DNA from: Corallococcus sp. AS-1-6
Lineage (GTDB): Bacteria > Myxococcota > Myxococcia > Myxococcales > Myxococcaceae
Assembly (NCBI RefSeq): GCF_020037015.1
Contig: NZ_JAIQDE010000006.1
Span: 124,001-188,000, forward strand
Direction: 5' to 3'
DNA: 64,000 bases
Shown: piece by piece, positions 56,152 to 61,291 of the stretch
Layout of the letters: every line of letters begins with the position of its first letter
How positions within the stretch are numbered: the stretch's first letter is position 1
The notes under the pieces: model-generated
Database searches by the model: none
Told to the model about the DNA's origin: nothing
What the model saw: the letters and a program-made list of their open reading frames with translations, nothing else
Position numbers and translations under genes: made by a program

Positions 56152-57552
56152 TCAGCCGCCGAGCGCCACGTTCTCCAGCACGCCCAGCGCGTCCGGGACG
56201 AGCACGGCGGCGGAGTAGTAGGTGCTCACCAGGTAGTTCGTGATGGCCTGGTCGTTCACGGACATCCGCTTCACGGTGAGGCTGGGCTCCACCTCGTCGG
56301 GGATGCCCGCGTTGTGCAGGCCCACCACGCCCTGGTCGTCCTGACCGGTGCGCATGGCGAGGATGGAGGTGGTGTTCTCCCGGCTGATGGGCAGCTTGTC
56401 GCACGGGAGGATGGGCACCCCGCGCCACGCCTGGAACTTCGCCCCGCCCACGTCCACCACCGTCGGGTACAGGCCGCGCTTGGTGCACTCCCGGCCGAAC
56501 GCGGCGATGGCGCGCGGGTGGGCCAGGAAGTAGCGCGTCTTGCGGCGGCGCGACACCAGCTCATCCATGTCGTCCGGCGTCGGCGGACCGGAGCGGGTGT
56601 TGATGCGCTGCTTCAGGTCGGCGTTGTGCAGCAGGCCGAACTCCGGGTTGTTGATGAGCTCCCACTCCTTGCGCTCCTTCAGCGCCTCGATGGTCAGCCG
56701 CAGTTGCTCCGCGGTCTGGTTCATGGGGTCGTTGAAGACGTCGGACACGCGGGTGTGCACGCGCAGGATGGTCTGCGCCACGCTCAGCTCGTACTCGCGC
56801 GGCTTCAGCTCGTAGTCCACGAAGGTGCCGGGCAGCACGGGCTCGCCGTGATGGCCCGCGGCCAGCGCGATGGCGGCCTGCCCCGCCTTGTCCTGGGGCT
56901 TCTTGAGGTTCGCCCGGTAGCGCTCCACGTGGGCCTTCAGCGCCGGGGACTGGGTGATGAGGGACTCGAACACGTCCTGGGGCAGCGCCATCACCGTGCA
57001 GGCCGTGACGGCCTTGACGGTGAAGGGCCACACGTCGTTCGACTCCACCACCGCCTGGTCGCCGAAGTGGTCGCCGTCCGCCAGCGTGTCCAGCACGACG
57101 GGGTCGCCGTACTTGCCGGCCGTCAGCTTCTGCGCCTTGCCGTGCGCCAGCAGGAACACGTGCTCGGCGGACTTCCCCGCCTCCACGATGGTGTCCCCGG
57201 CCTTGTACTGCTGCTGGGTGAAGCGGCCGGCCAGGGTGCGGATGAGCAGGTCATCCACGTCCTGGAAGCCCCGCATCAGCGGCAGCTTGAGCAGCTCCTG
57301 GGGGATGACCTCCACCTTGACGCCGATGTTGCTGAAGTTCAGCCGGTCGTCGCCCACGGTGTACGTCAGCCGCCGGTTCACGCGGTACGTGCCGCCGGAC
57401 ACCTGCACCCAGGGCAGGATGCCCAGCAGGTAGCGGGGCGAGATGCCCTGCATCACCGGCTGCGTCTTGGTCGTCGTCGCGAGCTGGCGCGCACCCGCCG
57501 TGCTGAGGCTGGTGCCCTCGTGCGCCGCTACGTCCTTCTGTGAGTTCGCCAT
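56152..57552 (-). CDS. Family 2B encapsulin shell protein A
   Basis: This 466-residue protein starts at the ATG at 57552 with CCGGAGA 7 nt upstream. It is a phage HK97-fold encapsulin of family 2B. The N-terminal arm ([18 protein letters not shown], about 15-32) leads to [27 protein letters not shown] cyclic-nucleotide-binding-like insert spans about 95-200. The capsid core includes [41 protein letters not shown], in parts. The insert's phosphate-binding cassette reads [19 protein letters not shown], without the Glu and Arg pattern of active cNMP sites. It is a paralogue of shell B, 28 bp downstream of it. Confidence 0.93.
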
Positions 57553-57580
57553 GGAAGAATCTCCGGGTCGCGCGGGGGGA

Positions 57581-58978: not shown

Positions 58979-59032
58979 GGGGCCACCTTCTCCAGGTTGG
59001 GGATTCGAAAGGCTTCGGGACTGCGTGGGGAC

Positions 59033-61291
59033 TCAGGACCTACCGGCGCGGAACAGCTCGGCGATGCGCATGGCGGACGTGCCCAGGGCGGAGACGTTCC
59101 CGGCCTGGAGCTTCGGCGCCGCGTCGTGGAGGAGCTCCTCTTCCGTGTAGCGGGTCACCTCCGCGTGCCACCGGGGGATGCCCGCCATCCACTGCTGGAG
59201 CTGCTCCACGTACTTGTTCAGCTTCTCCCGCGCCTGCTCGTCCAGGTCGAAGGTGCGGATGACCACCGGCAGCTCCTTGGCCACCAGGTGCTCGAACTGC
59301 TTCATGCGCGCGGTCATCAGTGCGTTGACCGTGAGCACGGCCTCGTCCTTGTCCACGCCCAGGAACTTCTGGACCACGAGCACGCAGTTGTTGAGCTCGC
59401 CCTCGAACTGAATCTCCTTCTGGTAGGAGAAGAGGTCGTTGACGAAGCAGGCGTAGTCCGCGGCGGAGTTCTCCAGCCCGCGCAGCGTGCGGGTGTTGAA
59501 GACGTCCTCCGGCACCGCGTCACCCTTGGAGAGGCGCGACAGGCTCATGGTGAGGTCCGAGCCGAATGTCTTGCGGCGCATCTCCACGTAGTCCACGGGG
59601 TCCGGCACGCGGTTGAGCAACTGGTTGTTCAGCTCCCACACCCAACTGTCCGTCATGTCCTGGATGGCCTTGCGGAACAGCTTGCGGCCGCGCGGAGACA
59701 GCGGGCCCGCGGTGCGCTTCCACAGGTCCACCAGGCCCAGCTCCACCGGGTTGGTGGGCACCGCGGCGTTGGCGGCCTCCACGTCATCCGGCATGAACTG
59801 GCCCAGCCGCGCGGTGAACAGCTTCGCGCCCGCCATGTCCCGCGTGTTCGCGTAGAGCATGGGGAAGTAGTCGTCCGCGTAGGTGCCCCAGACGAGCCAG
59901 CACGCCGTCAGGTCCAGTTGCTCCGGGGTCGCGTCCGGGTGGATGTACGCGCCGCAGAGGGCCACGTCCGCCGCGTCGAACTTGTGGTCGTCCCAGACGT
60001 AGAACCCCACCCCGGGCACCACCTCCAGCATGCCCACCCGCCGCGCCCACGCCTTGGAGTTCTTGCGCGCGCGGTCCAGGTGCGGGCTCTGGTACGTGGT
60101 GTACGGCATGTAGAACTTCGGCAGCTTCGTGGGGCCCACGTGCTGGCGGGGCACGTGGCTCAGCGAGCGGGCGCGAGGCCCCAGCCCCAGCCCGCCGGCC
60201 GTCAGCGGGAGCCGCAGCGCGGAGGTGCCCAGGCCGGAGGGCACCGGGATGGACAGCGCCGGCCGCTCCTCCGAGTGCTGGTTCATGTAGCGGTTGGAGC
60301 GCATGTGCCACTCGTGGCCGCCGGACTGCCAGTCCTGCAGGCCGCGCAGGTACGTGAGCACCTGCGCCTGCTCCACCGGGTTGAGCGCGTACTCCGCGAA
60401 CAGCCACGGCAGCTCCGTGGCGAAGGTGGTCTCGAACTGCTGGAGCCGCGACGTCAGCAGGTCGTTGACCAGGTCCGCCGCGCGCTGGGTGTCGCAGTCG
60501 AGGAACTCCTCCACCACCAGCACGCCGTTGGAGAGCTCGCCCTCCTCCAGCTCGCGCTCGTAGGAGAACAGGTCGTTGCGCAGGTGCACCGCGTCCGAGA
60601 ACGTGTCCTTGAAGACGCGCATCGGGCGGCTTTGCACGACGCGGGCGGGAATCTCCGCGGCGACGGCGTGCTCCACCAGGTCGGAGGACCAGGGCGCGCC
60701 GCCCACCTTGCGGCGCATCTCGATGTACTCGATGGGGTTGGAGACGCGCGCCTCGCTGATGTTCTCGATCTCCCACATCGACTCATCGAGCAGGTGCTTG
60801 GTGTTCTCGTAGAAGCGCTTGCGCCAGTCCATGGACATGGAGGGCACGGTGCGCTGCCACAGGTCCCAGAGGGCGCGCTCCACCGGGTTGGTGGGCTCCG
60901 GCGGCGGGGACATGTCCAGCGGCATGAACAGCGGCAGCCGGTCCAGGTAGGCCTGACCGCCCTTCACGTCACGCGAGTACTTGAAGACCTCCAGGAAGTG
61001 GTCGTCGAAGTAGAAGACCCAGACGTACCAGTCCGTGATGAGGTCCAGCTCCGGGCCCGGCGCCTCCGGGTGCGTGTACGCACAGAGCAGCGCGTAGTCC
61101 ATGCCGTCGAAGCGGCGCTCGGACCAGACCTCACGGTCCGTGCCATCCCGCGGCGGGCCCAGGATGCCCATCTGGTACGACCACGCCTTGGTGTGCGCGC
61201 GGGCCGCCTCCAGGTTCGGGTTCAGGCGCGCCGGCCATGGCACGTAGAACTCCGGCAACTGGAACGGTTGCTTCTGCTTCCCCTTGGACAT
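59033..61291 (-). CDS. geoA: Germacradienol/geosmin synthase, putative encapsulin cargo
   Basis: This 752-residue bifunctional class I terpene synthase starts at the ATG at 61291 ([10 protein letters not shown]) with a GAGGGGCG ribosome site. The N-terminal domain has DDHFLE (96-101) and the Mg2+ triad in NDLFSYERE (239-247); it makes germacradienol from farnesyl diphosphate. The C-terminal domain has an altered DDYFP (473-477) and NDLFSYQKE (618-626) and converts it to geosmin. The linker (about 341-389) and the C-terminus each carry LGTSA-x-R (354-360, 736-742). It leads the operon with two family 2B shells, which strongly suggests encapsulation. The product assignment rests on clear family resemblance. 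Confidence 0.95.
59066..59086 (-). other. LGTSAMR motif at GeoA C-terminus
   Basis: Residues 736-742 of GeoA read LGTSAMR, followed by ten residues to the end. It is the second copy of the linker motif and a candidate encapsulin-targeting element at the exposed tail. Confidence 0.55.
60212..60232 (-). other. LGTSALR motif in GeoA linker
   Basis: Residues 354-360 of GeoA read LGTSALR inside a Pro/Gly-rich, probably disordered linker between the two synthase domains. This is a candidate encapsulin-targeting element. Confidence 0.55.

Follow-up and report, generated by a model that had tools for sequence, protein, structure and literature searches.

A Corallococcus geosmin synthase operon with two types of family 2B encapsulin shell gene, a probable two-component nanocompartment

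Geosmin, the compound behind the smell of soil, is also a frequent off-flavour of drinking water. Why so small and volatile a compound should be made inside a capsid-like shell is the question raised by a three-gene locus of the soil myxobacterium Corallococcus sp. AS-1-6. The locus lies in a 64,000-nucleotide stretch of DNA, hereafter the window, covering positions 124,001-188,000 of the forward strand of contig NZ_JAIQDE010000006.1 (assembly GCF_020037015.1). It comprises geoA, encoding a bifunctional germacradienol/geosmin synthase (GeoA), followed by two genes for virus-derived shell proteins, encapsulins of family 2B, here called Enc1 and Enc2. From the observed gene order, the identities of the proteins, their Enc1- and Enc2-type marks, the placing of motifs, purifying selection and co-occurrence across genomes, we consider the locus to be probably a geosmin operon of the two-component family 2B encapsulin type associated with terpene cyclases, in which GeoA would reside within a mixed shell. 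The order geoA, Enc1, Enc2 on the minus strand and the intergenic gaps of 54 and 28 bp, on which an initial annotation of this DNA had relied, were all confirmed in the sequence at the coordinates of Table 1, and the layout on one strand is operon-like.

The identification of GeoA as a bifunctional geosmin synthase was borne out, and the matches of all three proteins exceed by far what chance would give. The protein scored 1222.5 bits against the NCBIfam model NF041168 (f2_encap_cargo3; cut-off, 1200 bits), and Pfam recognized two terpene synthase stretches (PF19086), the metal-binding motifs of which were present in both domains (DDHFLE at residue 96, NDLFSYERE at 239, DDYFP at 473 and NDLFSYQKE at 618). 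Its N-terminal half matched the N-terminal domain of germacradienol/geosmin synthase in the Protein Data Bank (PDB; 5dw7, E = 2.1e-146, and 5dz2). As is characteristic of f2_encap_cargo3 members, an LGTSA-type motif lies between the two domains and a further copy, here degenerate, lies at the C-terminal end. A GPTGLGTSAAR consensus at these two places has been proposed as a targeting sequence (PMC8346489). In a GeoA structure predicted from 23 aligned sequences (mean predicted local distance difference test score, pLDDT, 84.8), the only segments below 50 besides the two termini were residues 336-374 and 728-742, the latter partly helical in the model, and both hold the motifs. As modelled, the LGTSA motifs thus appear positioned like docking tags, inside the two longest stretches of low confidence. 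The pattern LGT[SA] was found in 72/80 GeoA reading frames vs 7/281 other frames of at least 600 residues.

Enc1 and Enc2 proved to be two distinct HK97-fold shell proteins of family 2B, as had been proposed. Both scored well above the cut-off (400 bits) of NCBIfam NF041163 (encap_f2b), at 769.9 and 745.2 bits, respectively, and Pfam found in each a SrpI-like encapsulin domain (PF19307; 456.6 and 452.1 bits) plus a cNMP_binding domain; in terms of sequence, both carry the HK97-type family 2 encapsulin domain and the cyclic nucleoside monophosphate (cNMP)-like insert in the E-loop by which family 2B is recognized. The two are 65% identical (295/452 positions) and are thus different shell proteins. 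Their best PDB matches were 9bje for Enc1 (E = 1.2e-194) and 9bix for Enc2 (E = 3.2e-182), which, judged by their motif letters against PMC12407261, look like Enc1 and Enc2 of Streptomyces lydicus. Both window shells also strongly matched the family 2B shell of Streptomyces griseus (PDB 9BHU, named in PMC12407261). That shell carries an Enc2-type motif. We take 9BHU to be the shell of a single-shell 2-methylisoborneol (2-MIB) system. The structure of Enc1 predicted by AlphaFold, with a mean pLDDT of 52.5, was too poor for use. A shell search of the window's own genome returned these two as the only full-length 2B shells, the remaining 19 matches being partial, at most 48 bits, and nearly all to the cNMP-like part. 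Comparison with six relatives revealed purifying selection on all three genes, the ratio of nonsynonymous to synonymous substitution rates (dN/dS) being 0.09-0.36 for Enc1, 0.19-0.43 for Enc2 and 0.22-0.45 for geoA by a crude Nei-Gojobori estimate on genes with a third-position GC content of 0.97-0.98.

Two shell genes less than 10 kb apart that bear, respectively, the Enc1 and Enc2 forms of diagnostic motif 1 mark a two-component 2B system, and this is what the window holds, with TVWK in the first shell gene after geoA and RRRK in the second. Both the motif 1 letters and their order are those of the S. lydicus pair (PMC12407261). In S. lydicus the putative cargo is a xylulose kinase, and the motif 2 stretches differ from those of the window, a comparison made with the S. 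lydicus letters alone. The pairing recurred in a survey of the best 80 of 340 relatives, loci taken from named genomes, among which the nearest sequences came from Corallococcus, Myxococcus and Pyxidicoccus. In L025, from laboratory strains of Myxococcus xanthus, geoA too precedes two shell genes. At least one full-length shell was present at 64 of the 80 loci: 50 had an Enc1-type followed by an Enc2-type shell, 13 a single Enc2-type and one a single Enc1-type shell, so that every locus with two full-length shells had the Enc1-type first and the Enc2-type second (50/50). The single Enc1-type shell (L032) lies at a contig end, one locus counted as lone Enc2-type (L051) has a cut Enc1-type gene at a contig end, and L060, whose shell is in broken frames, was omitted from the count. 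The Enc1-type label pools TVWK, LVWK, KVWK, TVWR and one MVDK, and the Enc2-type label RRR and MRR forms. A single evolutionary split between the two types found no support: although clustered, the labels change six times on a tree of 156 shells, five of these changes being forced by supported branches.

Among the loci examined, the two types are constantly paired across phyla, which is an argument for their belonging to a single particle. In S. lydicus, Enc1 alone forms no regular shells, Enc2 alone does, and the two together co-assemble into mixed shells (PMC12407261). The two-component nanocompartment predicted in the initial annotation draws support from the co-assembly of a pair of the same types. 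According to an alternative that we consider unlikely, the two proteins would form separate homomeric particles, or Enc2 alone would build the shell with Enc1 as a minor dopant, leaving no true two-component compartment. Single-shell geoA loci are indeed nearly always Enc2-type (12 loci, L051 set aside), as are 33 of 36 lone shells drawn, where positions were reported, from 60 lone-shell genomes (family of genome G203, 56; family of G205, four), and PMC8346489 leaves room for shells that assemble separately; the fixed order of the two types at all two-shell loci and the demonstrated mixed shells of S. lydicus (PMC12407261) speak against it. Shells found alone are thus mostly Enc2-type and rarely Enc1-type, which, exceptions aside, fits the assembly behaviour of the S. 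lydicus proteins.

The neighbourhoods of other myxobacterial geoA genes agree with that of the window. Among 195 Myxococcota genomes, 59 encoded geoA (E of 1e-100 or better) and the same 59 encoded a full-length 2B shell (59/59), two shells lying directly downstream in 59/64 geoA rows; 12 further genomes with short 2A-like matches (<=341-389 bits, covering profile positions ~206-450 only) were not counted as 2B. The five other rows consist of second copies in three genomes belonging to the same family as the window (L150, L151 and L152, in G061, G062 and G100), the other copy of which has two shells, a half gene on another contig (G078), and a 4163-base contig ending after one shell (G116).

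The association extends to genomes in which enzyme and shell genes stand apart. No shell lay within the flank examined at 15 of the 80 surveyed geoA loci, and all 15 genomes had a 2B shell elsewhere, 13 of them at least two; among these, the genomes of L026, L050 and L053 have a further geoA copy with adjacent shells, L058 and L074 come from short contigs, and the shells of L081 are ~10 kb away. Of 200 genomes from the family of Crossiella sp. S99.2 (G205), 129 had both geoA and a shell, one geoA only (G337), two a shell only (G303, G392) and 68 neither, shells thus being present in 129/130 geoA genomes. In 84/106 checkable genomes, geoA and the nearest reported shell were separated by more than 10 kb or lay on different contigs, a share that is an upper bound, as it considers the best-scoring shell places only. 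A 2-MIB synthase was found in 74/200 genomes of this family; the 126 without one comprised 57 with geoA and a shell, none with geoA alone, one with a shell alone and 68 with neither (shells in 57/57 geoA genomes vs 1/69 others). In the class of G196 (191 genomes), the corresponding counts were 23 with both genes (4/23 unlinked), none with geoA only, one with a shell only (G662) and 167 with neither. The link was weaker in the family of G203 (201 genomes), with 142 both, seven geoA only, 21 shell only and 31 neither. For the G205 and G203 families, the genomes were selected for a completeness of at least 95%. Naive Fisher tests, which ignore kinship, gave 6e-50, 8e-29 and 4e-16.

Kinship was taken into account with an rpoB tree that comprised 80 of the 200 G205-family genomes (every second genome, the three discordant genomes and G205, from which 23 were then dropped), where geoA changed 10 times, shells nine times and 2-MIB synthase 11 times. 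Across seven supported independent pairs differing in geoA, shells differed the same way in 5.0, the opposite way in 0.1 and not at all in 1.9 (median p = 0.0625); shells followed 2-MIB synthase in 2.8/9 independent pairs differing in the latter. The tree-corrected signal favours geoA over 2-MIB synthase as the shell partner.

Several observations weigh against the enclosure of GeoA in a mixed shell. With its median p above 0.05, the kinship-corrected co-occurrence in the G205 family is only suggestive. No shell was found in 7/149 geoA genomes of the G203 family, some of which a miss rate of ~5% could explain, or in G337 of the G205 family, and extra geoA copies without adjacent shells exist in G061, G062 and G100. 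Three of the 36 lone shells are Enc1-type (G534, G449, G594), which refutes the notion that this type never occurs alone. LGT[SA] is present irrespective of neighbouring shells (14/15 loci without a shell, 11/13 with one and 47/52 with two), and the GeoA proteins of eight sampled shell-less genomes retain the motif, seven by pattern and that of G337 as GIGTSALR by eye, compared to 11/12 by pattern in control GeoA proteins from shell-bearing genomes. The proposition that the motif marks shell dependence is thus unsupported; going by sequence, its persistence would be expected if shells work in trans or went undetected in draft assemblies, and also if the motif has another role. In a cyanobacterial 2-MIB cluster, transcription of the two shell (cnb) genes is separate from that of the enzyme genes (PMC10580876). 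Finally, no GeoA-loaded shell has been announced in the literature searched, which covered few subscription papers.

The persistence of LGTSA motifs in shell-less genomes can be read in favour of another alternative, in our judgement an improbable one, whereby the shells would serve other cargo or product storage, GeoA would stay outside, and the link with geoA would be regulatory or ecological. The frequent lack of linkage between geoA and shells points the same way, and the retention of 2-MIB in cells could reflect binding and not encapsulated synthesis (PMC10580876). Against this, shells of the G205 family track geoA better than 2-MIB synthase (prenyltransferases and other cargo lying outside the search), and both NCBIfam and PMC8346489 count geosmin-synthase-like cyclases among putative cargo proteins, in the former case of family 2 encapsulins.

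Encapsulation of GeoA, as a putative cargo, is likely here, and we infer the co-assembly of this Enc1/Enc2 pair, the loading of GeoA and the retention of its product to proceed as follows. Enc1 and Enc2 would together build a single mixed shell (HK97 fold, T=1) of ~28 nm, to the inner face of which GeoA would dock via its flexible LGTSA motifs, one in the linker and one at the C-terminus. Farnesyl diphosphate would enter, and geosmin leave, through pores flanked by the cNMP-like domains. The main gain would probably be to retain volatile, membrane-seeking geosmin and leaked germacradienol in the cell until release, the shell not being required for the chemistry itself. A free-standing Streptomyces geosmin synthase is active in vitro. 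In the sister system, E. coli can make 2-MIB in the absence of the two cnb genes; the native cyanobacterium retains the product and E. coli lacking the shell genes releases it (PMC10580876). The 2-MIB facts fit product retention better than help with catalysis. Channelling of germacradienol to the second active site, which the initial annotation had suggested, would be possible and, given the activity of these enzymes without shells, need not be invoked.

That geoA and 2B shells accompany each other almost one to one, even where unlinked, leads to the testable claim that the enzyme depends on a shell, even on one acting in trans. In its widest form, which we advance tentatively and deem slightly less likely to hold than to fail, the proposal would make geosmin synthase a near-obligate client of a 2B shell, usually of two types and even when unlinked, with geosmin compartmented throughout myxobacteria, cyanobacteria and many actinobacteria, and with one shell set able to serve several terpene cyclases per cell.

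The locus itself is ordinary, a real, well conserved and previously described system, and the arrangement cannot be regarded as new. A geoA-cnb-cnb cluster with the same three genes in the same order was published for cyanobacteria and Deltaproteobacteria (PMC7251104), the accessible text naming two of the genes Crp/Fnr-type regulators and leaving shells undiscussed. The family 2B operons of PMC8346489 share with the window two shells with cNMP inserts, a two-domain geosmin-synthase-like cyclase, and LGTSA motifs at the linker and C-terminus, the C-terminal motif of the window being degenerate, unlike their consensus. Myxobacterial geosmin clusters with the gene arrangement of the window, Corallococcus among those listed, are found in PMC12224551, the two shell types or their order going unmentioned in its accessible parts. 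The fixed Enc1-Enc2 order and the unlinked co-occurrence are results beyond this published gene arrangement and worth following: PMC8346489 is an operon survey that, in the parts seen, does not count genome-wide unlinked co-occurrence of geoA and 2B shells among its points, and none was announced elsewhere in the same limited literature.

Two further readings hardly survive. That the two genes encode transcription regulators of the Crp/Fnr type controlling geosmin synthesis, as older names have it (PMC7251104, PMC3072421) and as the PF00027 and CRP-like PDB matches of the cNMP domain might suggest, is extremely improbable, and as a main role is refuted by the domain make-up: Pfam gives only SrpI-like and cNMP_binding domains for both proteins, with no DNA-binding domain reported, and their C-terminal halves consist of an encapsulin shell domain (452-457 bits). 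That Enc1 or Enc2 is a decaying, functionless duplicate, as their 65% identity could be taken to mean, is just as hard to credit with dN/dS well below 1 for both and two shells kept in 59/64 Myxococcota geoA rows. A cyclic AMP switch in these shells also seems unlikely, because the arginine that we take to be the phosphate-binding-site residue of cNMP domains is missing from the corresponding stretches of both Enc1 and Enc2. The cNMP-like domains of a related shell reportedly bind no cyclic nucleotides (PMC12407261, citing its reference 35).

Table 1 Features of the geosmin locus, in window coordinates
Feature	Position	Strand	Details
geoA, bifunctional germacradienol/geosmin synthase	59033..61291	-	752 aa; Pfam, NCBIfam and PDB matches
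Putative shell-docking motif 1, LGTSA type	60212..60244	-	GeoA residues 350-360, linker between cyclase domains
Putative docking motif 2, degenerate LGTSA copy	59066..59098	-	GeoA residues 732-742, near C-terminus
Enc1, family 2B encapsulin shell protein (shell B of the initial annotation)	57581..58978	-	465 aa, Enc1-type
Enc1 cyclic-nucleotide-binding-like domain, PF00027	58385..58648	-	Residues 111-198, before SrpI-like part
Enc1 diagnostic motif 1, TVWK	57974..57985	-	Residues 332-335; letters as in S. lydicus Enc1 (PMC12407261)
Enc2, family 2B encapsulin shell protein (shell A of the initial annotation)	56152..57552	-	466 aa, Enc2-type
Enc2 cyclic-nucleotide-binding-like domain, PF00027	56950..57213	-	Residues 114-201, before SrpI-like part
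Enc2 diagnostic motif 1, RRRK	56539..56550	-	Residues 335-338; letters as in S. lydicus Enc2 (PMC12407261)
Hairpin 3' of Enc2, likely transcript end	56087..56136	-	Folding; 16 bp beyond Enc2 stop

The geoA start is an ATG at 61291, a longer mechanical frame (59033-61342) opening at an upstream TTG. At the other end of the locus, the single terminator of the initial annotation is plausible from folding: the stretch 56085-56151 of the minus strand folds into a strong hairpin (-41.5 kcal/mol, z = -4.5; 0/200 shuffles as stable), but the U tract after it is weak and a consensus terminator scan listed none on the minus strand. The next minus-strand gene, nrfH, is predicted to begin 33 bp downstream of Enc2; because the predicted GTG sits inside the hairpin, the true start is probably further downstream. 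Together with nrfA (cytochrome c nitrite reductase), nrfH occupies positions 54056-56118 of the minus strand, directly behind the geosmin operon. Inclusion of nrfHA in the operon was rejected, as nrfH/nrfA were near geoA in 1/26 scanned loci (L009, 3 kb behind Enc2).

Upstream of geoA, and likewise on the minus strand, the window contains a Lys/Ala-rich repetitive frame that by eye appears histone-H1-like (61515-62087), a dapE-like desuccinylase gene (62091-63179; Pfam/NCBIfam) found near geoA in 8/26 scanned loci, and a gene for a ChrR-like anti-sigma factor (63225-63857; Pfam/NCBIfam). Elsewhere, the locus titled Comamonas sp. KCTC 72670 (L022) holds a Myxococcus-like geoA-Enc1-Enc2 set, and its label or assembly may be wrong, while L027, L028 and L046, with geoA and a single Enc2-type shell, come from metagenome bins called Chloroflexi and Methylococcaceae, which would reflect transfer or mis-binning. 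Genome G303 of the G205 family, which has shells and no geoA, gave a 2-MIB synthase match containing a stop codon. G205 itself, the genome of L083, encodes five 2B shells together with a complete geoA and some shorter frames resembling it, and its several shell sets may share cargo.

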